Source of the DNA: Hemileia vastatrix
Taxonomy: Eukaryota; Basidiomycota; Pucciniomycetes; Pucciniales; Zaghouaniaceae
DNA: 64,000 bases
Reading direction: 5' to 3'
Assembly: GCA_030280995.1 (NCBI GenBank)
Contig: JASXTE010000015.1
Span: 19,827,001-19,891,000, forward strand
Shown: positions 6,296 through 51,877 of the stretch, one piece after another
Position numbering within the stretch: the stretch's first letter is position 1
Layout of the letters: the number at the start of each line of letters is the position of its first letter
Made by a program: the position numbers and the translations under genes
Notes under the pieces: model-generated
Seen by the model: only the letters and a program-made list of their open reading frames with translations
Database searches by the model: none
Told to the model about the DNA's origin: nothing

Positions 6296-6985
6296 ACTGA
6301 GGGCCTTTCCAAACGACGACGACGATCGAAGCCTGGCGACGAACGACAAAACGCACGGACCACCTAGCAAAACGAAACTTTTGCCGCGACTGTGTTTCGA
6401 ACTTGGGTTCGACATCTTAGGTTTATATAATATTAATTTTTATATTATTTTGAAGTGATTTTTCGATCACTATAGTAAGTTCACCTTTGCGCCTCTCACT
6501 CATATTACTATATTTTTATTGCAATAACAGTGATTGTGGCTTAATTGCTGATTCACTGAGTGTAAGTGTTCAATTTTTAAAAAAATTTTTTTCCTAGTTG
6601 ACCATTATAGAGTGTTAAATCCTCTTAGTCCTAGAAGAATTGACATTATTATTAATACAAAGTGAATTATTAATTTAATTTTTTTTTTATTAATTAATTA
6701 TTGTTAATTTTGGTTGACTTAAGACATTGTGCTTAGTCCCAATATATTGCCATATTTAATATTGGTAATTAATTGGTTGAATTAACTAACTTGTTATTCC
6801 CAATTTAAACTTGCAATCCATTTTTTTAAAAAATTAATTTTTTTAATTATTACTTTATATTGAAAGTTATTTTTTCTATAATTTAATTAATTAAAAAAAT
6901 TTTTTATATTATTTGGAGCAATTATTGACTAACTTTGATTATTTTTTTATAAAGTACAAAGTAAAATATTAATCTTCCCACTAGT
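6296..6985 (+). other. Leader of element 1 with CpG-rich start
   Basis: The leader between the 5' LTR and the first ATG begins with about 120 bases rich in CpG (6296-6415) and then turns AT-rich. The first bases after the LTR (ACTGAGGGCC) do not begin with TGG as a tRNA-CCA primer site would. Diverged GTTGAC...GTCC motifs (near 6596 and 6711) resemble the leader array of element 3. Confidence 0.5.
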
Positions 6986-7667
6986 ATGTCCAACAATTTG
7001 ACAGAAAAAATGGATAACATGCAAGTGGATGAAATAGAAATTGACTATGATGCTGACACTGTAAGTTCTTCTAAAGTTGGTCATAAAAAATCTTATGTTA
7101 ACACAAAGAATTCTCATCCTGCAGGATGTGGAAATGACAGGAAATGCAAACAAACCAAACCCCCTTCCCCCAGTACCACAGAAGGAAGTAAAGCCTCTAG
7201 TGCCTCAAGAAGGTCTTCCAAAAGGCTTCAAAATAAAAAAGCTTCCTCTGCCACAACAAATCAGCAACCTCTCCAGTCATATAAAAGAGTTGAAGACAGA
7301 AAATATGACGTACAAAGCAAAGGTAGACACATTGTGGGATCAGGTCCAAGAACTCAGGAACCAGATTCAGGCCCAGGCCCCTCCTCAATTGCCTCCCAAT
7401 CAGCTTCAATTTCAGGCTCAACCTTCACAGCCACCCAGCTCAACCATCCAAAATCCAAATACTATGGAAGTAGAGCAATGGAAATGGGATTATCTAATGA
7501 GTCACTACCAACAGAATGTGCAACACCCTCCTCATCATCAGCCTGGCCCATCCAGAACACCCAATTTCCATCCACCTCCTCATCCCTACCAACAAAGCAG
7601 GAGAAAGAAGGCCCAAGCACAATCCCAAACCCAGTCCCAGGGGAAGTTTCCTCCTCTGCCATGGTAA
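6986..7667 (+). CDS. Overlapping spliced ORF1 of element 1
   Basis: Joining exon 6986-7060 to exon 7125-7667 across a 64-base intron (GTAAGT...TGCAG) gives a 205-residue protein in a different frame from Gag-Pol. It has an acidic start, a coiled-coil stretch, a Pro/Gln-rich part and a basic end. In element 3 the same frame, after an intron at the same place, keeps the motifs HIKEL..EN, GPSRT and HPYQ, although it has two stops there. The left-edge copy also keeps HPY followed by RRK in this frame. Its stop TAA (7665-7667) sits inside GTAAGT and overlaps ATG 7661-7663 of the Gag-Pol frame (ATGGTAA). A second intron-like pair (7664-7721, branch-like CTAAT) would rejoin to the same TGG-TAA. Function unknown; an alternative Gag N-terminus or accessory protein. 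Confidence 0.6.
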
Positions 7668-10600
7668 GTAATTTGGTTGATAGTCACTTGGGTATATTTT
7701 CTAATAAATCTTCTTCTGCAGGTAATATTATTGAACATGGTGAAAGAACAGTTAAACCTGTTAAAAGACAGCTTCCTGTAACTAGTAGCCCTATTGATGT
7801 AATTAGCAAATTGTCATTTGATGAACCTTTACATTTAACTTCTACATCTTTAATTAATCCTTCTCTTGAAATTAAAAATGATTCTGTTCCCCCTGAAATC
7901 TATAACTTAATTGAAAAAACTTCTGAGGAAATTTTGAAAGATACCCTTGATTTTAATATTGTGAAAGACAAACATGTGAGAGATGTGTTAATCCATGAAA
8001 ATGATAGATTAAATAATTTACACTTGCAATGTAGAGTGAGTTCTTCTGTACAAGATACAGCTTATATAAAAATCAAAGAAGCCTTGAATATTGTTCTTAG
8101 TCAACAAAAACAAATAAGAAGTGACCATAGAGCTATCTCAGATAGAAATATTAGTCTGCATAAGACATTGAGTGAATTGAAACCCCTTATTGAGGAAAAT
8201 TATTCATTCAAAAATGAAATAAAATCTCTACAAAATGAGTTGAAGAAACTAAAAAATGACTTCCATGCACTAAGTACCAAACACTCAGTTTCTGAGGACA
8301 GAAATGTTCTATCTCTTGCAAAAGTGAATGACCAGATGTCTGAAATTCCAAGAATAAGAAACTATGTGTCTGACCTACAGGAAAAGTTCTCAACCTTAAC
8401 CATCAATAATGAATTAAATGAGATTTCTGCCAGTAAGCTGCATAAAAATAAAGGGAAAAAACCTGAACAAAGTTCATCCTTTCTTCCTCATATTTCAGCC
8501 ATTAAACAAACTGACAATGAGTCTGTAAAATCTTTTGCTACTAGCAAAAAATCTTGTGATGGTCATGCACCAGCTGTTTCTGTAAATAATGAACTTTCTG
8601 AACACCTGGCTAAACTTCAGGAATTATTACTAATGAATAATTCAAACCAAAAAATGGACCATCCCAGTAGTCAGAAAAATTGGCCTAAGTTAGACCAATA
8701 TCCTACCTTTGATGGTGATTCTTCCTCTGATTGGCAACACTTTATCCAAAGAATTGATAATTTAAAGAGATCTTATAAACTACCTGATGAGGAAATTGTT
8801 TCTAAGCTAATTTCTTTATTTTCCAATGTAGCCTTGATGTGGTATGAATCTGTCCTCTTAGATAACAATCATTATACATGGAATGATTGGAAATCCTTGA
8901 TTGAGAATCAGTTTGGTGGTTCAAAATTCAGGTTAGCTCAGCAAAGACTGTATGAGAATACTAGATATGTATCCTCCTCTGTTGAAAAGCCCATTGTTTT
9001 TCTGATGAAAATAACTAAAATCCTTAGAGCAATTGATCCAAAGATGGATTATGATATTTGGAGAGATAAAATCTTGTATAAATTACCAAATTCTCTTAGG
9101 GATTTGATTGTTGCTAGAACTGAGCATGTAAGGGAAAATTCTTCTTTCATTAATATCTGTAATGAAGTACTACTCAACCATAGATATGAACCAAAGAATT
9201 ACCTTAGTAAATCTTATAATGATCAGAATAAACCTTCTATAAAGCTCCAAGAAAAATCTGGTAAACCCTCTGCCCCAGTTGCACCTAAAAAATATGCAAC
9301 AAATACTTGTTATAAATGTAACAAACCGTGGCAGAAGGGTCATGTTTGTGACAAGAAAATTCATCTTGTTGAACAAAATGAAGACACTGATGAACTTGAT
9401 CTTGATGTCAATAATTCTTCCAGTGACTGTGAAAGTAATATCTCCTATGACAATGAATCTGTTAAAGATGTTTTAATGTTGGAACATGATGTCCATTATT
9501 TAAATAATATATCTGAAGATTGTGTATTGAATTTATCTTCAGTAGAAAATGCTGAGATAATTAAAGATATTACTAACAATTCTATTCCTATATCCCCTTT
9601 AAAGGCACCTGTTATCATTAATGGTAAAAATGTTGATGTAGTTCTTGATTCTGGTGCTGGAGGAAGTGTAGTATCTGAAAAAGCTTTGGCTTCAGTGGAT
9701 AAGGAATATTTGTGTAAATTATTGCCTATAACTTCTGAAAAATGGAGAGGGTATGGTTCTACCTTATTTCCTATTGGCAAATACAAAACCTCTGTATTCT
9801 TCAAATATAATGGTGGTTTTGTCAGAGCTATTTGTGAATTTGTTGTCATGCAAAATGATAATTTGAGCAATTGGTTTATTATGGGAAATGATATTTTAAC
9901 CATGTTTGGTGTGAAACTGGACCCAGCAAATAATTGCTTTACCTTAGGAATGAATGGGAAAAGAAAATTCAAAATTTCTTCTCCTAAACCTTCTGGGCAT
10001 TTGTTGAAATCTTGTAACTCACTGACCCACTGTAAAGGTAGAACAACAACTGAAATGGATGATTTATTACATGAAATAAATACCGCTTCTTTTGGTGATC
10101 ATTTGACTAATGAACAAAAGGATTCTATTGTTGCCTCTATTACCTCTTTCCCTATGGCTTTTGCTCATGGTTCTCATGTCTTGGGAATTGTTCAGGAAGA
10201 GATGAAAATTACCTTATCCTGTAATTTGAGTGATATTCCTCCTTCCCTTAAGAAAAAACCATATCCTGCTTCTCCATCAAAAAGAAAAGATATTGAAGAT
10301 AATATTGAAACATTATTGAAAATGAATATCATTGAGAAAGTGGATGTCACCCCCAAGTATTGTGTCATCTCCCCAGTCTTAATTTCTTATGAAAAAGATA
10401 AAGCTAGATTATGTGGAGATTACAGAGCTTTAAATACTTATACTGTTGATGATATTTATCCTTTACCCAGAATTAATTCAATACATGCTACCTTGCAAGG
10501 TGCAAAATTTATTAGTTGTCTGGATGGTAATAAAGGGTATCATCAAGTTCCAGTTGAGAAAAATTCTCAAAATTTTTTGCTTATTGCTACTCATATGGGA

Positions 10601-13153
10601 ATATATAAGTATGTTAGGATGCCATTTGGCCCTAAAAATGCTCCTTCAGTTTTCCAGAAAGTCATGGATAACACTTTCCATCAAGAAATTATTGAAGGTT
10701 GGCTCATGGTTTATATTGATGATATTATTGTTTTTTCTAAAACTTTTGATGAACATATGATTCATTTAAATAGAGTTTTCCAAAAAATGGATGAAATCAA
10801 TATGACCTTATCTTTAAAAAAGTGTAAATTTGGTTTTCAATCTTTGAAAGTCCTTGGCCATGTTGTGTCAGGCTTACAAATTTGTGTAGACCATAATAAA
10901 GTTGCTGCCATTCAAAATGTGAAAGCACCAACTTCTGTAAGAGAAATCCAAAGTTTTTTAGGTATGTGTGGCTATTATAGACAATATATTAAAAATTATC
11001 AGGTCATAGCCTTGCCTCTTACAAAACTAACCAGAAAAGATGTTGCTTTTCTCTGGAATGATGACTGTCAAAAAGCTTTTAATACATTGAAAAATTGCTT
11101 AATGTCAGCCCCTATATTGGCTCTTCCAGATTTTAACAAGCCATTTGTACTTTATACAGATGCTAGCTTTATTGGTCTGGGTGCTGCCCTTCACCAAAAG
11201 CAAATTATTAATGATAAATCCTCAGAGGTTGTAATTTGTTATATTTCAAGAACCTTAAGAAATAGTGAATTGAAATATGGTGCCACTCAATTGGAGTGCT
11301 TAGCAGTTGTTTGGGCTCTTGAGAAACTTCATTACTACTTGGATGACCAAAAATTTGAGTTGGTAACTGACTGTAGTGCTGTGAAATCTCTCTTAAACCT
11401 CAAAACACCTAACAGACATATGTTCAGGTGGCAACTTGCTGTTCAGGAATACAGAGGAAGGATGACTATTATCCACAGAGCTGGAAATGTTCACTCTAAT
11501 GTTGATATGCTCTCCAGATTGCCTCTGCCAAATAATGACTCCAATCCTGCTTATGTACCTGAGGATGACACTGTTCATATACATGGTATATTTATAGTTG
11601 ATATGGAAGAAGAGTTATTACAGTTAATACTGGATTCATATGATAAAGATTCTGACTTAAATAAATTAGTTACTATTTTGAATGATCCTAAGAATGCTTC
11701 AATTCAAGCATTAATAAAAACTCTTCCTGCAAAATACCAAAATGCTTTAAATAAAGGAAAGTTTTCTATTGAAGATGGTTATATTTATTATAGAAGGAAG
11801 CTTACCAATGTAATTGTTATTCCTCCTTCAATGAAAGAAACTATCCTCAAACTTTGTCATGATGACATATTAGCTGGTCATTTTGATCTTGAAAAAACAT
11901 TGATTAGAATCAAAAACACTCCATGGTGGGCTAATATGTCTGAAGACACAAAATTATATGTTGAATCTTGTGATTCCTGCCAAAAATCTAAAAAGTTAAC
12001 AGGCAAGAGAGCAGGGTTATTACAACATATTGAAGCACCTAGTGCTCCCTGGCAAATCATTAATATGGATTTTGTCACTGGTCTTCCTGTTGCAGGTAAA
12101 GACAGCTTTAACTCTTGTTGGGTAATAGTTGATAGATTCACAAAAATGTGCAAATTTATTCCAACCCACAAAGATGTATCCACCAAAGAATTAGCTTTCT
12201 TATGGTGGTCTTACATGTTTAATATTATTGGTTTTCCAAAAGCCATTATCTCTGATAGGGATCCAAAATTCACTTCTGAGTTTTGGACCTCTTTGATGGA
12301 TATTTGTGGCTGTGAGTTAAAATTATCTACAGCTCACCATCCTCAGACTGATGGTCTAGCTGAAAGAATGATTCAAACTCTGGAAGATATGATTAGAAGG
12401 TATTGTGCCTTTGGTTTAGAATATAAAGATAATGACAGATTTACTCATGATTGGGTCACTCTTTTGCCTGGTCTTGAATTTGCTTATAATAGCACTGTTC
12501 ATTCTGTCACTGAGAAAAAGCCTTTTGAGATTTGGTTAGGTTATGTCCCAAACACTCCTGCTCAGATTCTCAATAATAAATTACCTAAGTTGGAACTACA
12601 TCCTGGTGTAAAATCTTTTATGCAAATGCAACAGCTATGCAGAAAACATGCTCAGACTTGTATTGATAAAGCATTTGAATATGAAAAGAAAAGATGGGAT
12701 AAATCCCATAAAGAATACACATTTAACAAGGGTGATGAAGTGTTGATCTCTACTGTCCATTTCAATTTACAAGGTAACCACAAATTAAAAGATCCTTTTG
12801 TAGGACCATTTGTTGTTAAAAGAATGGTTGGTGATAATGCAGTAGAAGTTGTATTGTATTCTCCATATGATAGGAAACATCCTGTCTTTCCCATTTCTTT
12901 GCTTAAACCTTATACTTCCAACAGTGACTTATTTCCGAAAAGAAGAGGAAGACCTAAGAAGAACCCTCAGGAAGTCACAGAAACAGCAGAAATTGATAAA
13001 ATTCTCAATGATAGAATTATCACTTCTGAAAGAGGTACTGAATATTTATTGAGATATAAGAACAAATCATCTGAACATGATGCATGGATACCTGGCAAAG
13101 AAATTTCAAATCTGCCTGCTCTGTTGAAAAAATACAAAAAGAAAAAATCTTAG
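6986..13153 (+). CDS. Gag-Pol polyprotein of element 1, chromodomain type
   Basis: A 2055-residue frame. Residues 1-240 are low-complexity in this frame and overlap a second frame (see 6986-7667). A coiled-coil Gag region follows (about 360-480), then a capsid-like region (about 560-740) and a zinc knuckle near 775 with odd spacing (CX2CX7HXC). The protease has DSG at 888. Reverse transcriptase has YIDD at 1243-1246, followed by RNase H with TDAS near 1391. Integrase has an HHCC region from about 1625 and catalytic Asp 1715, Asp 1756 and Glu about 1792 (D35E spacing). A C-terminal chromodomain-like segment (about 1998-2045) suggests a chromovirus that may target heterochromatin. No stop or frameshift separates Gag and Pol. 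The ATG at 6986 gives the longest frame; an alternative start is the ATG at 7661 (GCCATGG, residue 226). Confidence 0.92.
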   Translation: MSNNLTEKMDNMQVDEIEIDYDADTVSSSKVGHKKSYVNTKNSHPAGCGNDRKCKQTKPPSPSTTEGSKASSASRRSSKRLQNKKASSATTNQQPLQSYKRVEDRKYDVQSKGRHIVGSGPRTQEPDSGPGPSSIASQSASISGSTFTATQLNHPKSKYYGSRAMEMGLSNESLPTECATPSSSSAWPIQNTQFPSTSSSLPTKQEKEGPSTIPNPVPGEVSSSAMVSNLVDSHLGIFSNKSSSAGNIIEHGERTVKPVKRQLPVTSSPIDVISKLSFDEPLHLTSTSLINPSLEIKNDSVPPEIYNLIEKTSEEILKDTLDFNIVKDKHVRDVLIHENDRLNNLHLQCRVSSSVQDTAYIKIKEALNIVLSQQKQIRSDHRAISDRNISLHKTLSELKPLIEENYSFKNEIKSLQNELKKLKNDFHALSTKHSVSEDRNVLSLAKVNDQMSEIPRIRNYVSDLQEKFSTLTINNELNEISASKLHKNKGKKPEQSSSFLPHISAIKQTDNESVKSFATSKKSCDGHAPAVSVNNELSEHLAKLQELLLMNNSNQKMDHPSSQKNWPKLDQYPTFDGDSSSDWQHFIQRIDNLKRSYKLPDEEIVSKLISLFSNVALMWYESVLLDNNHYTWNDWKSLIENQFGGSKFRLAQQRLYENTRYVSSSVEKPIVFLMKITKILRAIDPKMDYDIWRDKILYKLPNSLRDLIVARTEHVRENSSFINICNEVLLNHRYEPKNYLSKSYNDQNKPSIKLQEKSGKPSAPVAPKKYATNTCYKCNKPWQKGHVCDKKIHLVEQNEDTDELDLDVNNSSSDCESNISYDNESVKDVLMLEHDVHYLNNISEDCVLNLSSVENAEIIKDITNNSIPISPLKAPVIINGKNVDVVLDSGAGGSVVSEKALASVDKEYLCKLLPITSEKWRGYGSTLFPIGKYKTSVFFKYNGGFVRAICEFVVMQNDNLSNWFIMGNDILTMFGVKLDPANNCFTLGMNGKRKFKISSPKPSGHLLKSCNSLTHCKGRTTTEMDDLLHEINTASFGDHLTNEQKDSIVASITSFPMAFAHGSHVLGIVQEEMKITLSCNLSDIPPSLKKKPYPASPSKRKDIEDNIETLLKMNIIEKVDVTPKYCVISPVLISYEKDKARLCGDYRALNTYTVDDIYPLPRINSIHATLQGAKFISCLDGNKGYHQVPVEKNSQNFLLIATHMGIYKYVRMPFGPKNAPSVFQKVMDNTFHQEIIEGWLMVYIDDIIVFSKTFDEHMIHLNRVFQKMDEINMTLSLKKCKFGFQSLKVLGHVVSGLQICVDHNKVAAIQNVKAPTSVREIQSFLGMCGYYRQYIKNYQVIALPLTKLTRKDVAFLWNDDCQKAFNTLKNCLMSAPILALPDFNKPFVLYTDASFIGLGAALHQKQIINDKSSEVVICYISRTLRNSELKYGATQLECLAVVWALEKLHYYLDDQKFELVTDCSAVKSLLNLKTPNRHMFRWQLAVQEYRGRMTIIHRAGNVHSNVDMLSRLPLPNNDSNPAYVPEDDTVHIHGIFIVDMEEELLQLILDSYDKDSDLNKLVTILNDPKNASIQALIKTLPAKYQNALNKGKFSIEDGYIYYRRKLTNVIVIPPSMKETILKLCHDDILAGHFDLEKTLIRIKNTPWWANMSEDTKLYVESCDSCQKSKKLTGKRAGLLQHIEAPSAPWQIINMDFVTGLPVAGKDSFNSCWVIVDRFTKMCKFIPTHKDVSTKELAFLWWSYMFNIIGFPKAIISDRDPKFTSEFWTSLMDICGCELKLSTAHHPQTDGLAERMIQTLEDMIRRYCAFGLEYKDNDRFTHDWVTLLPGLEFAYNSTVHSVTEKKPFEIWLGYVPNTPAQILNNKLPKLELHPGVKSFMQMQQLCRKHAQTCIDKAFEYEKKRWDKSHKEYTFNKGDEVLISTVHFNLQGNHKLKDPFVGPFVVKRMVGDNAVEVVLYSPYDRKHPVFPISLLKPYTSNSDLFPKRRGRPKKNPQEVTETAEIDKILNDRIITSERGTEYLLRYKNKSSEHDAWIPGKEISNLPALLKKYKKKKS
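7061..7124 (+). other. Predicted intron 1 of element 1 ORF1
   Basis: The donor is GTAAGT and the acceptor TGCAG, in phase 0 after codon 25. Equivalent junctions exist at 40719-40777 in element 3 and at 879-924 (minus) in the left-edge copy. In element 3 this segment holds an in-frame TAA, so reading through it would end translation there. Confidence 0.6.
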
Positions 13154-33053: not shown

Positions 33054-33413
33054 GAAAGAAAAGAATAGAAAAGAAAAGAAAAGAAAAGAAAAGAAAAGAA
33101 AAGAAAAGAAAAGAAAAGAAAAGAAAAGAAAAGAAAAGAAAAGAAAAGAAAAGAAAAGAAAAGAAAAGAAAAGAAAAGAAAAGAAAAGAAAAGAAAAGAA
33201 AAGAAAAGAAAAGAAAAGAAAAGAAAAGAAAAGAAAAGAAAAGAAAAGAAAAGAAAAGAAAAGAAAAGAAAAGAAAAGAAAAGAAAAGAAAAGAAAAGAA
33301 AAGAAAAGAAAAGAAAAGAAAAGAAAAGAAAAGAAAAGAAAAGAAAAGAAAAGAAAAGAAAAGAAAAGAAAAGAAAAGAAAAGAAAAGAAAAGAAAAGAA
33401 AAGAAAAGAAAAG

Positions 33414-33454
<41 letters not shown>
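33054..33454. repeat. AAAAG pentanucleotide satellite and poly-A
   Basis: About 70 nearly perfect copies of AAAAG (33060-33413) run into about 40 A. The 150- to 184-codon open frames here, on both strands, are by-products of a repeat without stop codons. Confidence 0.95.
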
Positions 33455-33708: not shown

Positions 33709-33970
33709 TGTTAGCCAGGCTGCTAGACTTACCCAGTAAAATAATTAATTATTTACTGGGAGGAAGCCACACATTTTTTATTTCTTATTTTATTATTAAT
33801 TATAGTTTATTTACTTTAAAGTTACTTGTAATAAGTTAACTGATTACAAAAAGTAAATTTAGTAAATATTTAAAATTAATATTAATGTCCCTTATATTTT
33901 TTTATGTCCTAACACCATGCTCAATGGCAGGTTAAATGAAATAAAAAATTAATATTAAAATAAAATAAAT
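33709..33970 (+). repeat. 5' LTR of element 3, truncated
   Basis: It starts TGTTAGCCAGGCTGCTAGAC and follows the 3' LTR at 44497 closely up to the Harbinger-1 insertion. Sequence beyond that insertion does not continue the LTR. Confidence 0.75.
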
Positions 33971-34052
33971 AGGGGGTATCAATGTTCAGGGATCCGCAAT
34001 TAGGGATCAGGAATTTTTTTTCCCGGGATCAGACATTATTAATTGTGGAAGA

Positions 34053-34088
34053 TTCTTATCCACTAGCCCCAGGGCTAGTGGATAAGAA
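34053..34088. repeat. Perfect 17-bp palindrome near Harbinger-1 left end
   Basis: TTCTTATCCACTAGCCC and its exact inverse are separated by two bases (CA), about 80 bp inside the left terminus. It could be a subterminal binding site for the transposase or MYB-like protein, or a remnant of another small element. Confidence 0.85.
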
Positions 34089-34356
34089 ATCCACGATAAT
34101 GCATTATCCCGCCTCTTATACCCCAATTTCCATTCCTAATTCCTGATCCCAAACTCATCACATCCATGATGGATTTGCAAGAAAGTCACATGACTCATAA
34201 TTGCTGATGCCATCCTTAAGTCTTTCCTCACTCTATGCCACTTAATTTTGGTGGCGAACACTTAAGTTTTTTTCTATCTACACACCTCAACTGCACATTT
34301 GGCGGTGAATTTCCACTTCCCACTTCTCTCATCACATATCCCTTCCACCGACAACA

Positions 34357-35619
34357 ATGAAGCACCTCTCTACTAGGAAGCTACTTCACTCAACAATGAA
34401 TGCTATCACTTTTCTTTTAGTTCTTTACTATAAATCTGACTCTGATTTGGAAGATGCTTTAGCTTATATGTGTTTTCTTTCCAAAAAGTGTTACATCATC
34501 ACCAGGGGGCCAAATCTTTATCATGATCCCTGATATGATCTGGCCTCCATTCTCAACATTCCTCATTTAAACTTCACACAACTTTTTAGAACTTCTCCCA
34601 ATTCTTTCTTCAAACTTTATCAACTTATTTCTGAACATCCTATCTTCCATAACAATTCTCATAACAAACAGCATAATCCTACCATCCAACTTGCTGTTGC
34701 TCTATGTCGCTTTGGCTCAAATGGAAATGGTGCTGCCGTAAGAAGTTTGGATAATCTCTTTAACATAGGATATGGTACCGTGATATTATACACCAAGCGC
34801 TGTATGATTGCTATCCTTTCCCTCAAGTCTCAAACTCTTGCTTGGCCAACTCCAGAACAGTGACTTGAATCCTCTCAAGTAATGCAAGCTGAAGGTTTCC
34901 CTGGCTGTATAGGTTTTGTTGATGGCACAACCATCCCTTTGAGTCAAAAGCCTGCTCATGATGGCAACCATTATTTTGATTGCCAAAAAAGGTTTCTTCA
35001 AAATCTTCTCCAAGTTCTCATCTTTTACAATCTAACTTTTTATCTTCTTTCTAGATACTCTATTGCCATTCAACTTGTATGCGATGTCAATAAAAAATTT
35101 ATTGCTTTTCACAGTGGCTGCCCTGGATCATGTCATGACTCTTCTGTCTTCCAAAGAATGAGGATTTCTCAATCCCCTGACTCATACTTTGACGAATCTC
35201 AGTACCTCCTTGCAGACTCAGCATATGCAAGTGGAAAGTACATTATACCTGCTTTCCGTGGTGCAACTTCAGAAAATGACCCCAAAACTGCCTTTAATTA
35301 TCACCTTGCACAATCAAGAGTACAAATTGAACATGCTATAGGTATTTTAAAGGGACGATTTTCTAGTCTTCGGGAGCTCAGAATCCAATTTCAAAAAAAA
35401 TTGGAGATCAAAACTGCAAATCATTGGATCTTGACTTCCGTAATACTCCACAATATTCTAGCTGATTTAAAGGATGAGTAGAATGATCTTTATGAAGAAG
35501 AGGATCCTGAACCACCACCAGCACTCCCCTCCCTTTATTCACAAATCATTCAATCAACCAGCATACGCTCCATTATAATGCCAATTACTCTCCAACATTT
35601 CACTTTGCAACACTTTTAA
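34357..35619 (+). pseudogene. Harbinger-1 DDE transposase
   Basis: About 400 codons with one 63-base intron (34992-35054, GTTTCT...TTCTAG) that keeps frame. It matches the DDE superfamily 4 (PIF/Harbinger) type. FVDGTT carries the first Asp (34921), LADSAYA the second (35215), and IEHAIGILKGRF the Glu (35329), so the catalytic triad is kept. Three in-frame stops (TGA 34531, TGA 34861, TAG 35479) inactivate it. After the last stop the frame continues with an acidic, Pro-rich tail to TAA 35617. It lies upstream of the dioxygenase on the same strand. Confidence 0.85.
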
Positions 35620-36826
35620 TTTTTAATTTTTATGTTTTCATACTTTCCAAATGTCCTCTTTGTGTACTTAATTCACTTGATTTTGTATTTTGGTTTGTTG
35701 TATATTCATTTTTTTTTTGAATTTACAGTGAATATCTTTTTTTTGGATGGCTCATTGGTTTTCTTTCACCAGCTCAACATGAAATCGCATATTTTCTGAA
35801 ATTGCATATTTTGTCAGTGATTTTTTTTTTCATTCATCCCTCATATCCTTTTCCTATTCTCCTCCAACATCCCTCAAACAATTTGGTTTCATTCATTTTG
35901 TCATCTCATCTCTCCAGGTAAGTCATTTTATTCTTTTTTTTTTGATTTTTTGATTACTAATTATAATTTTTTTTTGTTTTTTTCTGTTTATTTTATTTTA
36001 TTTATCTAAATTTTTTTTGTAAGTGGTTATTTTGGATTTCAATGGTATAATTAACCTTTTTTTTCTCTCCCTCTTTACTTTCTTTTTTAGCTCCATCACC
36101 CTACTCTTCATCCCTCCTTGGCATGGTCATTATCCCCCCTTTCCCTTATTTCACTTTTTTTTGGCTCCATTTCATTGAAACACATACATTGCACATTCTT
36201 TATGCATTTCACTTACTCCATATTCAATTTACCCACAATTCCAACATCAATCTTTCTCACTCTATTTTTCCTACTTTTCAATCAAGGTAAGTTTCATCTC
36301 CTTTTTTTCATGCCTATATGATATCTCATTCCTTGTATGAAAACTTCATACTTAAATATATGTATGACTCTTATCTGGATAACAGTGAACTTATAAAACT
36401 CCTTTTGATCTCATCTTCATTACCACTTTTCAAGTTTTTGTAAAATTTTGAAAATCAGACTCGGAATTAGGGTTAGGTTTATTCAAATCTAATGTTCTTT
36501 TTACTGAAGATTTTCCTGAAGGCTACCTTTCATTTCCTACAAACAGATTTGAATTTGATTCAGTGGTTGCTGAGATATTGACCGTTAAAGTTGAGCCTTT
36601 TTTTTCCCAATTTAAATTTTTATTTCATTTTTTTATGTAACAAATTAGGGTTAGGTTTATTTAAATCACATGTCTTTTAAATGAAGATTCTACTAAAGCA
36701 TATCTTTCATTTCCCACAAACAGGTTTGAATTAGGTTCAGTGGTTGCTGAGATTTTGACCTTTGAAGTTGAGCCTTTTTTCCAAATTTCACTTGTCTTAT
36801 TTCACATTTTTATATTGCATATTTAG
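35620..36826 (+). other. Harbinger-1 interior, probable 5' exons and introns
   Basis: AT-rich DNA with candidate splice sites (CCAG/GTAAGTC at 35918, TTTTTTAG ending near 36090, AAGGTAAGTT near 36287). It probably holds the 5' part of the dioxygenase gene. A segment of about 150 bp is duplicated (36461-36610 and 36645-36780; shared block CAGTGGTTGCTGAGAT). A single inverted copy sits in Harbinger-2 (about 51228-51378). No firm exon is called. Confidence 0.5.
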
Positions 36827-37451
36827 AGGATAAGGATTCTGAAACTCTTATATGATTATTATCTAGGCATATATTCGTTGCTCACAAATATCACTAAAGC
36901 TCAAAAAGATGAAGATTTTTGCTCATGGGACACTCTACCTTCCTTTAACTCTTTTCTTGCTCTTCAACTCAAAAAGCTCTGTAATAAAGCATTTGAAAAA
37001 AATCATGAACTTGCAACCAAAGTTGGAATACCAAATTGGTGTGACTCCAAATGGGAAGATATCAGCCACAAATATCTTTTATTTTCTAATGTTATTATCA
37101 CTCATTCTGGATTCCACAATAGGATTCATATCGATAGGAATGATGCTAATTTTCTTACTTTTGGTATATTCTCATATATCAATCCAATAACTGGCCAACC
37201 AAACCATCTCCAGCTAAAATCAAAGGACATGGTTTATATTTTCCAGAACACCGGTGCATCATTGATTTTGGTTTTGGAAATGGTATCATCGAAACTATTT
37301 GGAATTCTTCTAAGGATAATCATCAAATGACCAAAGCTCCTCCTGGTTTGGAATCCTGTCAAGATTTAACACATTTTGGTTGCTCATTTCAAATCAGTAA
37401 TAAGTTCATACAAAGAATCAATAAGGTAAAGAAAGAAGGTAAAGTTAATTG
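36827..37451 (+). pseudogene. Tet-like 2OG-Fe(II) dioxygenase carried by Harbinger-1
   Basis: An exon beginning after a TTTAG acceptor conserved in Harbinger-2 encodes about 205 residues. FHNRIHIDRNDAN supplies an HxD iron motif (37127-37135). After INPITGQP a 1-base indel shifts frame, and GHGLYFPEH..IIDFGFGNGIIE..IWNSSKDNHQ follows with the distal His (37320). The tail is APPGLESC..LTHFGCSFQI. The order of HxD, IDFG, IW and distal His fits the Tet/JBP-like 2OG-Fe(II) oxygenase family expanded in rusts and mushrooms. TET proteins oxidise 5-methylcytosine; the substrate here is unknown. The same protein is kept in Harbinger-2 with different breaks, so it belongs to the transposon rather than being host DNA caught by chance. 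Assignment is from memory of the family. Confidence 0.65.
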
Positions 37452-38336
37452 ATTTAAAAAAACTTTATCTAGATCCAAAAAGTATGGGGATTAGAGTTGT
37501 CATTGAAAATTTTATATTTTTTCATAAATTTTTAATAAATATTTTTTATATATCAATTTGCTCAAGTAATGTGATGAGCCAACGACCTTTGGTTGTATAA
37601 CAGGTAATCATGATAACATTTATTTGTTTCATGGGGTTCCCCTAGCCTATACCTGTGGAAAGTCCCAAACTTAGTTTCTAGACTTGATCTGCATTTTGGC
37701 TTGAAGAATTGTCATTACTTTAAACTAGGGAAATTGATATATATTAGATATTTATTTAATAATTTATGTAATTATATTAAATTTAGATGACTTCCACCAC
37801 TTACTTCAATAAAATGCAGGGGGGGGGTATTGCCAAATTTTCAAATCTGACATGTGAAATTGATGACTTAGAAAAATTTTAGTGATACCCACCCCTTGCT
37901 TCAATAAAATGCGGGGGAGACTATTGCCAATTTTTTAAAACAAATAGAATTTTTTTGACTTGTAAATATTTTGGTGAAAATTTTTTGGTGCTACCTGTCC
38001 CTTACTTCAATAAAATCCATGGGGGGTTTTGCCAAAATTTCTTATAAGACTTGTGAAATTCTTGACATGTAAGAATTTTTGGGATACCAGTAAAATGCAG
38101 GAGGTAGTAAAGCCAAATTTTCATATAAGACTTTCAAGATTCATGATATGAAAGAATTTTTGTGATACCCACCCCTTACTTCAAAAAAATCCAGGGGTGG
38201 GGGATTGTCAAATTTTCAAAGGAGACATGAAAATTTTATTTAAAAAAAGTGGGAGAGTAATGAAATAAAGGAAACTATTGGAAATTTTATGTACAAATAA
38301 ATATGAACAGTTGAAGTGTGAGAGAAATAAAACAAA
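37452..38336. repeat. Minisatellite of about 105 bp in Harbinger-1
   Basis: From about 37780 to 38225 four to five diverged units share the block GATACCCACCCCTTACTTCA, then AATAAAATGCAGGGGG and TTGCCAAATTTTC. The 330 bases before and 110 after show no gene. Confidence 0.75.
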
Positions 38337-39741
38337 CTAGTCATACAATAATTTCTTTAAACATTCAATTTCCTCAAGAGATTTATTGGCTTTAACACAT
38401 TCTATCAAGAAATCTTTCTTTTTGGAATTTTCTTCATGATCAAACTTATATTTCATCTGCTCTAATAGGTTTTGATGTTCGAGTGTTTTCTCCTCTTTTT
38501 TTGATTTTTCAATACTTAGAGTTAACTCAAACTTCTTCTCCTCCAAATCTTGGGCCCAATCATCCTTCCGTAAAGAGAGCTGGTACTTCCTCTCCTCCAA
38601 ATCTTGGGCCTGATCATTCTTCCGTAAAGAGAGCTGGTACTTCCTCTCTTCCAAATCTTGTAGCCTATCATCCCTCCTTAAAAAGAGCTCATATTTCTTC
38701 TTTTCCAAGCTTAGAGTATCTTTAGCAATTTCTACTTGTTCTAGAGTGATAATAAAAAATAATATAAAGTAGAAGAAAAGTAGAGTAAAGTAATAAGAGG
38801 TATGGTATCACTTACCAGCATCACGTTTCTCTAAAAATTGTTCCATAGACAAAAAAGGGGGTGTGTGATGAAGTATCTCTTTTTCATCTTCTTTGGGAGT
38901 GGAAATTTAGACTACTTGAAGCCCTAGGCTTCTTGTTCAAGGTCATATTTTCCTCCTTATCATTGTCACTACCTTCAGACTCAGTTGATTGAGGATCCTG
39001 GGTTTGTTTGTCAGCCTTTTAAGAAATAAGAAAAAGATAAGTAAATAAAAAATAGAAATGATAAGATAAAAGAAAAAAGAAACAGACCTGAGTTAGATTT
39101 GGTTGGGTTAAATCACCTATAGGATCTACAGAAAAGCTATCTAGATTTGTCTCATTCAAATGAGGGGAGGCTTGAGTGGAGGAAGAGGATGGGAAAAGAT
39201 TTGCTTAAACATCATGTTCGGAGATAGGATCTTCTCCATCCAACATGTTTACAGGATTAACATCGGCTCTCTCTCCATATATTGCACCCATCTCTTTAAA
39301 GTAAGGACATAAATATTCAAGTTTATTGTCTATGGATTTGATACCCTTAGTTATATCAATGTTGGTAACCCCAAAACCAGTGGAAGATGAAAGAGCCTTT
39401 GCCTTCTTGTATTTGGCTCGGTAATGCTTGAAGCGTTCAGACATCTGTTTAGGCAAAAGATAAATCCTTCACTTGGTCTTATTCCGTAATTCATTTGCCA
39501 TTAGAAGATAGCCATTAACTTTTGATGTGGGGGACCGTCCTACTTTAGTGGCATACTCAGTACCAAAACAAGAATCATAGTTAGATTTGGTTTTCAGCCA
39601 GTTGATAAGAATGAGATGTTCATCTTTTTTTAATTGAACGGTCTTTGATTTCTCAGCTGAGCGGGGGAAAGAGGAAGTAGTGGGAATTGAAGAACAACTG
39701 GGTGATGGCTGCCTTTGAGAAGATCTAGGATGACAAGGCAT
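38337..39741 (-). pseudogene. Harbinger-1 SANT/MYB-like protein
   Basis: Three exons on the minus strand: 39741-39088, 39015-38816 and 38740-38337, with GT...AG junctions (GTCTGT...AAAAG; GTAAGT...CTCTAG). The N-terminal part has a SANT/MYB-like helical pattern (LKKDEHLILINWLKTK..YDSCFG, then KQMSERFKHYRAKYKKAKA). The C-terminal part is a charged coiled coil built of 18-residue repeats (LRKDDWAQDLEERKYQLS type, 54-base period). It is broken by TGA 39471, TAA at 39205-39207 and a 1-base shift near 38900. MYB-like partners help PIF/Harbinger transposases bind DNA and enter the nucleus. A damaged copy lies on the plus strand at 49694 in Harbinger-2. Confidence 0.7.
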
Positions 39742-40092
39742 GTTATTATAAATGAAGATGAAAAGGAGCAGAAACAAGCAGATGAGATAGCGAGATGAAA
39801 AGGAGAAGAATTAAATAGATGAAATGGGGAGAAATTCTGAGCGGATAGAATGAACAGGATGGGATGAGAATGGAAGTGCACAGCAAGGTAGAAGGCTGGG
39901 ATATCCAGAAAGTTGTCCAAGATGTGGTTATCAAATATTGAGGATAAAAATGTCAGATAAGAGGTGAACATTGACACGTAAAGTGTCTAATAACCCAATT
40001 ATTAGCAAAAATAATTGCGGAAGATAATTGGGGTATGCAGATTATTTTCCGCAATTAATTTAATTACGGATCGGTCAACATTGATACCCCCT

Positions 40093-40649
40093 ATTATATA
40101 TATATATATATATATTTAATTATTTCAGTTGACCTTCTGTCCTGATAATTAAAATATTATATTATTGTTTCAGTTGAAAAATTGTCCTGGCAGTAAAATA
40201 ATAGATATATAAAATTAATTGAATTACTTATATTAAATTATTTCAGTTGACATTAAGTCCTGGTAATTAAATTTTTTCAGTTGACTCTTAGTCCTGATAA
40301 TTATCAACATACATATTAGTAATTAATTGAGAATTGTGTTAATTATTCCAGTTGACTATTTTTCCTGATAATTAATAAATTATTTTATTATTTCAGTTGA
40401 TTTATTTTAAATCCTGGTAATAAAATATTAATATCTTAATTTAATAAATAATAATTGTGATTATTATTTCAGTTGATTTTTTGTCCTGATAAACATTATA
40501 TCTTCATTATTACAGTTGATTAAATAATCCTGATAATTTATTATATACTTGAAATATTGTTATTTTTCTCTTATTTTCTTTCAACAAAGTGAGATAATAA
40601 CTGATTAAATTTTAGTATTTCTTTCTCTCACTTCAGGTTATCTACAAAA
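40093..40649 (+). repeat. Leader array of element 3, eight diverged units
   Basis: Between Harbinger-1 and the first ATG, TTTCAGTTGAC followed by about seven bases and TCCTGATAATTA recurs about eight times (near 40122, 40168, 40241, 40274, 40349, 40392, 40468, 40511) at uneven spacing. The place corresponds to the gypsy leader. Confidence 0.7.
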
Positions 40650-49377: not shown

Positions 49378-49693
49378 AGGGGGGGGGGTATCAATGTTGA
49401 ATGATCTGTAATTAATTGAATTGTGGATAAAAATTATTATACCCCAATTATCTTGTGAAATTATTTTTGCTAATCATTGGGTTATTAGACTTTTTAAGTG
49501 TCAATGTTCACCTCTATCTGACGTTTTTCATCCTTGAATTTTTTCATAACCATATCTTGGACAACTTTCTGGATGTTCCAGCCTCTTTAACTTTCTACGC
49601 ACTCCCATCCTGTCTAGTCATTCTATCCATTCAGAACCCCTCCCCATCTCATCTGCTTGTTTGATCTCCTTTTCATCTTCAAAAATCTTAACA

Positions 49694-50095
49694 TGCCTCT
49701 TTGTCATAGATCTTCTAAAAGGCATCCTTCACCCAGTTGTTCTTCAAATCTCATTACTCCCTCTTTCCCCCACTTAGCTGAGAAATAAAAGACTGTTCAA
49801 CTAAAAAAAAAAAGATGATCATCACATACTTATCAACTGGCTGGAAACTAAAAACTAATCATGATTCTTGTTTTTGGTACTGGGAATGCAACTAAAGTAG
49901 GATGGACCCCCTCCATCAAACGTCAATGAAGATCTTCTAATGGCTAATGAATTATGAAATAAGACAAAGGGAAGGATTGATCTTTTACCTAAACAAATGT
50001 CTGAATGCTTCAAGCACTATTGAGCCAAATACAAGAAGGCTAAGACTCTTTCATTTTCTACTGGTTTTGGTATGAAATTGAATGCTGAATGAAAA
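49694..50095 (+). pseudogene. SANT/MYB-like remnant of Harbinger-2
   Basis: ATG 49694 opens a frame matching the first exon of the Harbinger-1 MYB-like gene (HRSSKRHPSPSCSS, then LLPKQMSECFKHY). It has several stops. Where Harbinger-1 has a TGA (39471) this copy has Gly, which shows that stop is a mutation in Harbinger-1. Confidence 0.7.
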
Positions 50096-50599
50096 CGTTT
50101 AATAACTAGTTTTTTTTTATATTTATTTTGTACATATTTCATTCTAATTTTTTTTTTTTTCAAGTCAAAAAAAAAAAATGTACACATCTTATTTGAAAAA
50201 GTTGACAATATATATCTCACCCTTCTTCAATTTACTCTGGGAGGTAAAGGAGTAAGGATTACTGAATTTTTTAATTTTATTTCATACATTAATGAAGTTA
50301 ATTAATTAAAAAAAAAGATAATCAAGCAAGTAAAGGAACTTCAAATACTATCTGCCATAGATTTCATGAGCAAAGTCAAAGAAAACATATGAAAAGTATA
50401 GTATTATGAACTCATTCATACAATATAATTGAATAAAGACCTTTATACATCACAAGGGCTTGATGGTACAATACTTAAAGTTGATTGATTATCTTTAATA
50501 GCTGATAACATTAAAAATATAAGAAAATAAAAATAAAATTTTTGAAATAATTTGATCATGGTATTTAGAATTCCTACCTAATGTTTTAGTAGCCATTGA

Positions 50600-51168
50600 C
50601 CCTTTGCCCCTTACTTTCCTTACCCAGTTGATCAAACTTTGATTGATCTAAAAAGAACATCCAAAATGAGTTAGTGTTTCACAAGATTCCAATCCAGGAG
50701 GTGCCTAAGTAGTTTGATGATTATCTCTTGAAGAATTCCAAATTGCTTTCATAATCCTGTTTCCTAAACCAAAGTCCATGATACATTTATGATCCGGAAA
50801 GTATAGTCCATGACCTTTTGATTTTAACAGGTGAAGGGGTTGGTCTTCCAGTAATAGGATCAATATAACAGAAAAGCTAAAAAGTAAGCATATTAGAATC
50901 ATGTTTTTCAACTTGGCTCTGGCTATGAAATACTTCATAGTTGATGATAATATTAGAATAAAAGATATAATTGTTATTGAGTTCAACCCATTCCATACCC
51001 TGTCCAATTGGGAAGTCCAGCTTTCTTGTCCAGGTTATGATTAGATTGAAATGCACAAACATATAATTTTTACAAACAATTGGCCAAGAAATAATTGAGT
51101 GATCCTAAGCTTTGGGAGATAAAAGCCTAGATAATCATCAGATACATGTTTCAGAAGCCTTATTCTCT
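50600..51168 (-). pseudogene. Tet-like dioxygenase remnant of Harbinger-2
   Basis: On the minus strand, after a TTTAG acceptor, the frame matches Harbinger-1: DDYLGFY, then IDPITGRP, GHGLYFPDH..IMDFGLGN, IWNSSRDNHQTT, APPGLESC..LTHFGCSF. The HxD position reads Gln-Val-Glu (50907-50915), so the iron site is lost. A 1-base insertion and stops also break it. The indels differ from Harbinger-1, yet the protein is still recognisable over about 190 residues. Confidence 0.65.
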
Positions 51169-51877
51169 AAATATGAAATATAAAAACATAAGATAAATTA
51201 AGTGAAATTTTGGAAAAAAAAAAATACTTAACTTTAAAGGTCAATATCTCAGCAGCGCACTGAACCAAATTCAAACCTGTTTTTATGGGAAATGTTAAAA
51301 ATTAGCCTTCAGGAGAATCTTTAGTGATAAGGACATCCGATTCAAATAAACATTAACCCTCATTCCAACTCTGATTTTCAAACAAACAGTACTTGAGGCT
51401 TTCTCAGAAGAAGAAGAAGAAGAAGAAGAAGGTAGCATTTCCTGACCACTTTTGATAAAAAAAAAAAAAAAAAAAATTCTTTTGTCTTCTTGAAGAACAG
51501 AATTAGAATTAGAATTGTAATCAGAGTCCAATGGGGGAGATCAAGAGCTATGAAAGAGATAGCTTGATGTAGCTTCTCATGATGTGAGAGTGAGGAAGGG
51601 ATGACACTTATACAGTATAAAAATGTAAATGATGTATACAATGTTTTTGAGTTATAAAGGGTTATGCTGCAGAGTGCTGCAGATGAATAGGATGATGCTG
51701 ACAAATCAGTGACATCAGCATTTTTGGTTGAGAAAGTGCAGATTTGAGTGAAATAAGTGACTTGTGTCACTTTTGAAATCCACCAGTGTTGGGGCTAGTG
51801 TGTTTAGGAAATCCGCACTTAAATAAGTGCAGATTTGGTCAAAGTTAAGTATGGATTCGTCAGAACTGACACACCCT

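Follow-up and report, generated by a model that had tools for sequence, protein, structure and literature searches.

The window analysed here, a 64,000-nucleotide stretch of the genome of the rust fungus Hemileia vastatrix (contig JASXTE010000015.1, positions 19,827,001 to 19,891,000; G+C content 34%), contains a 6,120-bp (6.1-kb) PIF/Harbinger-type element at 33972-40091, with matching terminal repeats, a TA dinucleotide on each side, and genes for a DDE transposase, a Tet-like dioxygenase and a third protein. We identify it, with high confidence, as a decayed cut-and-paste DNA transposon related to PIF/Harbinger and of the PHISTA type. All three of its genes are broken, with two TGA codons in the transposase gene, one in the third gene, and a frameshift in the dioxygenase gene. 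Sequence comparisons support the dioxygenase gene as a regular part of the element that has been under past selection at the protein level.

The terminal inverted repeats (33972-34002 on the forward strand and 40061-40091 on the reverse strand) pair over a 32-bp match that includes the flanking A, with 87.5% identity between left and right ends; the left repeat, GGGGGTATCAATGTT, begins at 33972 and its complement finishes at 40091. The genome of 748 Mb contains 9,738 matches to the terminal repeat with no more than one mismatch (4,861 and 4,877 on the two strands), compared with none on either strand for the pattern read backwards. The description of a Harbinger element with matching terminal repeats made in a first-pass annotation of this DNA is confirmed. 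A TA dinucleotide adjoins each end (33970-33971 and 40092-40093, both read directly), there is no adjoining 3-bp direct repeat, and the simplest reading is that TA is the probable target duplication of the element. Nine further copies were picked with a pattern that already contained TA. A 3-bp direct repeat adjoining the symmetric terminal repeats is present in none of the ten elements (nine of them picked with TA in the pattern), and an asymmetric 3-bp duplication, TAA/TAT, is possible in six of the ten, the window copy not among them. The base immediately outside the flanking TA is identical on left and right in eight of these ten elements (L036 to L044 and the window copy; chance of about 0.28 for each), which points either to a preferred target sequence or to duplication of more than the TA.

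The dioxygenase gene is in two pieces on the forward strand, the first at 36827-37330 and the second, in a different frame, at 37150-37452. Each gives its own match to PF20515, the Tet-like 2-oxoglutarate-Fe(II) oxygenase superfamily (E=6.5e-16 for the first piece, and E=5.2e-9 over 37150-37449 for the second), and both exceed the Pfam cut-off of 27 bits; the hidden Markov model check proposed for a Tet-like dioxygenase is thus positive in both frames. The HxD motif (codons 37127-37129 and 37133-37135) lies in the first piece and the distal His (37321-37323), with the LTHFGCSF sequence, in the second, so that these residues, the iron ligands of the family, are split between two frames in the window copy. 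Kojima (2025; PMC12730594) also states that HxD and the distal His are the iron ligands of the Tet-like family. The HxD position at 37127 had been called correctly, and a distal His is present as predicted, with its codon at 37321-37323 rather than at 37320. Both HxD and the distal His are invariant in all twelve aligned relatives with open frames. The first piece is 74% identical over 113 residues to a 389-residue open frame elsewhere in the genome, and the second is 79% identical over 80 residues to one of 338 residues. A 50-bp GT..AG intron at the change of frame, noticed by eye, would delete the stretch directly ahead of the break, which open-frame relatives keep as protein; we rejected it for this reason and favor a frameshift as the explanation. 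The first 45-49 positions of PF20515 are unmatched in the open dioxygenase frames of three family members (L036, L037 and L039), which makes a further exon upstream likely, although none was found. Searches of protein sequences with the dioxygenase recovered no relatives (none of 21 candidates at E<=1e-5, and none of 92 at E<=10), and it is therefore Pfam, together with the copies in the same genome, that places it in the family. These copies are abundant: all 150 places that were scored, from 10,849 first-look candidates, lie above the PF20515 cut-off, and none was found in 14 control genomes. The Pfam scores and the many copies together exclude chance as the source of the element, the transposase and the dioxygenase.

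With PF20515 genes so very numerous, and TET genes moving between transposon superfamilies in the account given in PMC12730594, the dioxygenase could be a chance neighbour, delivered by an independent insertion (of another TET-carrying transposon, for example) into a Harbinger copy. The survey of family members, chosen by terminal repeat alone, makes this extremely unlikely. Pairs were drawn from 100 listed exact matches to the terminal repeat, all within the first 14.9 Mb of one contig (C2). Among the matches listed, nine neighbouring pairs face inward less than 10 kb apart, all nine of which were examined, and five face inward at 12-20 kb; within 20 kb there are also four same-direction and five outward pairs. 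The four elements with full-length spacing (L036 to L039; 6.9-7.3 kb) each contain all three genes, arranged identically in order and orientation, and none of the four lacks the dioxygenase, as other full-length members would if the gene had arrived by chance in the window copy. A fifth element of 3.5 kb (L040) has the dioxygenase and third gene and no transposase match, and the remaining four (L041 to L044; 438-1,017 bp) share the terminal repeats and resemble miniature inverted-repeat transposable elements, with no coding match except for one stray at E=0.007.

Stretches chosen by the dioxygenase point in the same direction. Four 10-kb stretches around open dioxygenase frames were taken from seven loci listed without stops; in three of these the three genes are laid out as in those elements, the transposase being a relative with 65-67% identity, and the fourth (L031) has the dioxygenase and third gene with no transposase match. 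A further locus, L035, was chosen for the dioxygenase closest to that of the window; over 3.3 kb it matches the right half of the window element at 92% identity, and no transposase match lies upstream. The terminal repeat of the window element, with up to two mismatches, was not found within 1.5 kb on either side of the first 30 PF20515 loci, ranked by match to Pfam, but flanks of this length do not extend as far as it would lie. Pfam scans of ten frames at these loci gave two dioxygenases and eight frames without a match. A second, more diverged copy lies within the window on the reverse strand at 49384-51382 (left boundary provisional), with pieces of 65-78% nucleotide identity by blastn that include the dioxygenase region, the right end and part of the third gene. 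It has no transposase match and has lost the HxD motif, the position reading QVE by eye, and its dioxygenase again lies beside the right end. Just upstream of the dioxygenase of the first copy there is a tandem duplication (36465-36636 and 36643-36813, 83% identical), which has a single counterpart in the second copy.

We examined selection on nine open dioxygenase frames over 140 shared codons. The ratio of nonsynonymous to synonymous substitution (dN/dS) is below 1 in all 36 pairs, with values of 0.03-0.07 for the 20 pairs that span two subfamilies and 0.17-0.56 for the 16 pairs inside a subfamily; because the frames were chosen for openness, which favors low values, and dS between the subfamilies is 1.4-3.1, near saturation, these values show constraint and not its exact strength. 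In a comparison of the two window copies, 18%, 11% and 51% of first, second and third codon positions have changed in the C-terminal part of the dioxygenase (one half of it); the other, N-terminal half gives a weaker signal, with 37%, 30% and 52%. The first-pass annotation had proposed counting members that pair a dioxygenase under such constraint with an intact transposase; the constraint is present in every pair, and only one of the four full-length members (L036) has all three frames open. Strong purifying selection between subfamilies could also be expected of a dioxygenase domesticated for the host, with the transposon a mere vehicle, a reading that we regard as very unlikely given that the gene is found in at least 150 places and, in the stretches examined, is tied to a transposase and terminal repeats and is often broken.

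The transposase gene (34309-35481, forward strand) matches PF13359 (DDE_Tnp_4) with E=1e-24, the domain lying within 34864-35478, in agreement with the Harbinger DDE transposase originally proposed. It is interrupted by in-frame TGA codons at 34531-34533 and 34861-34863. The top four of its best-scoring named relatives are all rust DDE_Tnp_4 proteins, the best of them a Puccinia striiformis protein (P0001) with 57% identity by BLASTP, relative to which the window copy has a 21-residue insert. This insert coincides with a 63-bp GT..AG stretch at 34992-35054, which is probably an intron because stop codons occur at the corresponding place in a related copy (L032).

The main part of the third gene (39205-39810, reverse strand; open-frame relatives of 252-289 residues) has one in-frame TGA, at 39469-39471, and possibly encodes a Myb/SANT-like DNA-binding protein. 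A charged, repetitive frame at 38337-38807 on the same strand, with a similar 151-residue frame in L035 as judged by eye, probably belongs to it as a C-terminal exon, the joining being deduced. The label of 'MYB-like' given to this gene at first pass finds a partial echo: four scanned open-frame relatives, of five, have Myb_DNA-bind_4 matches at E 0.0014-0.022, under the Pfam cut-off, and the window's own pieces, including the 38337-38807 frame, have no Pfam match at E<=1. The four relatives are mutually homologous and constitute one piece of weak evidence, and the same scan gave implausible matches of like strength, to DHHA2 (E=0.0017, in another frame) and FUR (E=0.015, in one of the four). 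A Myb-like identity is thus suggestive only. The AlphaFold model of the third protein (predicted local distance difference test score, pLDDT, of 42.6) is too poor for a fold search or to decide the Myb/SANT question, and sequence searches of the PDB returned nothing useful. Degenerate repeats at 37760-38250, between the dioxygenase and third genes, are present in related elements too.

In addition to the selection of open frames, the near-saturated dS and the weaker N-terminal codon signal, several observations weigh against our interpretation of the element and its dioxygenase. Of the four full-length members in the sample, three are broken (in L037 and L039 the dioxygenase frame is open and the transposase and third genes are damaged, and L038 is broken throughout), and CpG ratios in these four carriers are 0.07-0.32. 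In L036 the transposase (454 residues), dioxygenase (184 residues, matching PF20515 positions 46-211 of 211) and third gene (289 residues) are all open, but the dioxygenase ends right after the Pfam domain, where those of L035 and L037 continue. The terminal-repeat-based sample consists of nine pairs from part of one contig, the Myb-like match of the third protein falls below the Pfam cut-off, and among the named relatives of the transposase there are, at lower scores, proteins from Phytophthora and plants. PDB sequence searches with the dioxygenase returned no Tet structure, the AlphaFold model of a dioxygenase relative is useless (mean pLDDT of 33.5, too poor for a fold search), and the support for dioxygenase function is sequence-based.

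The first-pass annotation was not aware of a Harbinger element described with such a dioxygenase; elements of this kind have been described. Kojima (2025; PMC12730594, in print December 2025) describes Harbinger elements carrying TET genes and names the lineage PHISTA, with 15 families in six rust species (five Puccinia and Austropuccinia psidii) and TA duplications. By comparison with the published description, the two share a Harbinger-superfamily DDE transposase, a TET/JBP-like dioxygenase, a third protein and a rust host, and the TA on each side of the window copy fits the TA duplications of PHISTA. PMC12730594 states that no third protein of the PHISTA families has a Myb/SANT domain, in which respect the weak, sub-cut-off Myb_DNA-bind_4 matches in relatives of the window element are a difference; the best named relative of its transposase, at 57% identity, marks another. 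This kind of element is therefore already described, and the window copy fits PHISTA in transposase, dioxygenase and gene content. Canonical PIF/Harbinger elements and Nuwa also have a Harbinger-type DDE transposase, and Nuwa has a second, DNA-binding protein; Nuwa encodes these two proteins only, whereas the window element adds a dioxygenase, and theirs are 3-bp duplications, unlike the window element with no adjoining 3-bp repeat. The Kyakuja-Dileera-Zisupton (KDZ) elements with TET/JBP genes are likewise fungal DNA transposons carrying a Tet-like dioxygenase, but their transposases belong to other groups and Zisupton makes 8-bp duplications.

In the mechanism that we propose, the transposase, perhaps together with the possibly DNA-binding third protein, would move the element, and the dioxygenase would most likely oxidise 5-methylcytosine, or possibly another base, on element DNA. 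As long as copies are active, such oxidation would relieve silencing by methylation or the mutation that depends on it, and in the same vein PMC12730594 proposes that TET enzymes counter methylation-based silencing and C-to-T hypermutation. We infer the substrate of the enzyme, its targeting to the element and a gain for transposition, and hold this escape from silencing, with moderate confidence, to be the role of the dioxygenase. An enzyme that belongs to the element could serve it otherwise, by marking the ends for the transposase, modifying thymine or adenine, or acting on host DNA to the element's benefit. The carriers described here are still CpG-decayed, which speaks for such roles, and PMC12730594 describes the activity of PU-type TET/JBP enzymes as so far untested, with other base modifications possible; placement by Pfam in the Tet-like superfamily and retention of HxD and the distal His in open-frame relatives tell against these roles, which we consider possible but rather unlikely.

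The pattern of CpG loss bears on how far escape from silencing could extend. Loss in the family is directed at CpG: none of 22 CpGs is kept from one window copy to the other, compared with 41-70% of other dinucleotides, and between the window element and six relatives CpG retention ranges from 3/47 to 20/55, with GC, CC and GG kept at 60-90%. CpG ratios are 0.26 for the element and 0.15 for the second window copy, and 0.68, 0.70 and 0.84 for three nearby open-frame stretches that we judged by eye to be host genes. The Tet-like gene did not shield the window copy from CpG loss, and the strong loss in this copy is evidence against its lasting protection. Retrotransposon-like stretches, Gypsy-like by eye, have ratios of 0.02, 0.03 and 0.74, and because two of them are more depleted than the element and the third is not, and age is a confounding factor, the CpG ratios give no reading on protection; a protective effect of the enzyme can be neither claimed nor excluded from them.

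Two further features of the window lie outside the element. A retrotransposon-like frame of 2,062 residues at 6965-13153 on the forward strand is fully open and contains 4 CpGs in 6.2 kb (ratio of 0.02), and this open, nearly CpG-free element, Gypsy-like by eye, may belong to a lineage that has adapted to mutation at CpG sites instead of having decayed. A long AAAAG microsatellite is located at 33060-33454, its poly-A end about 500 bp before the element.

The derivatives that have no transposase match but retain the dioxygenase and some or all of the third gene (L040 and the second window copy) could act in trans as dedicated anti-silencing helpers for the swarm of short elements with the same terminal repeats. 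We consider this distinctly unlikely, but if true, demethylation and transposition functions would be split between element types. The sample drawn first by terminal repeat and the dN/dS values independently support the view that a Tet-like dioxygenase regularly belongs to a Harbinger-type element and is under selection there, and the CpG-directed decay of its carriers sets a bound on the protection that the enzyme can give. With carriers, short non-coding relatives and retrotransposon-like elements side by side in one genome, the idea that these transposons escape silencing through their own dioxygenase is open to methylation sequencing.

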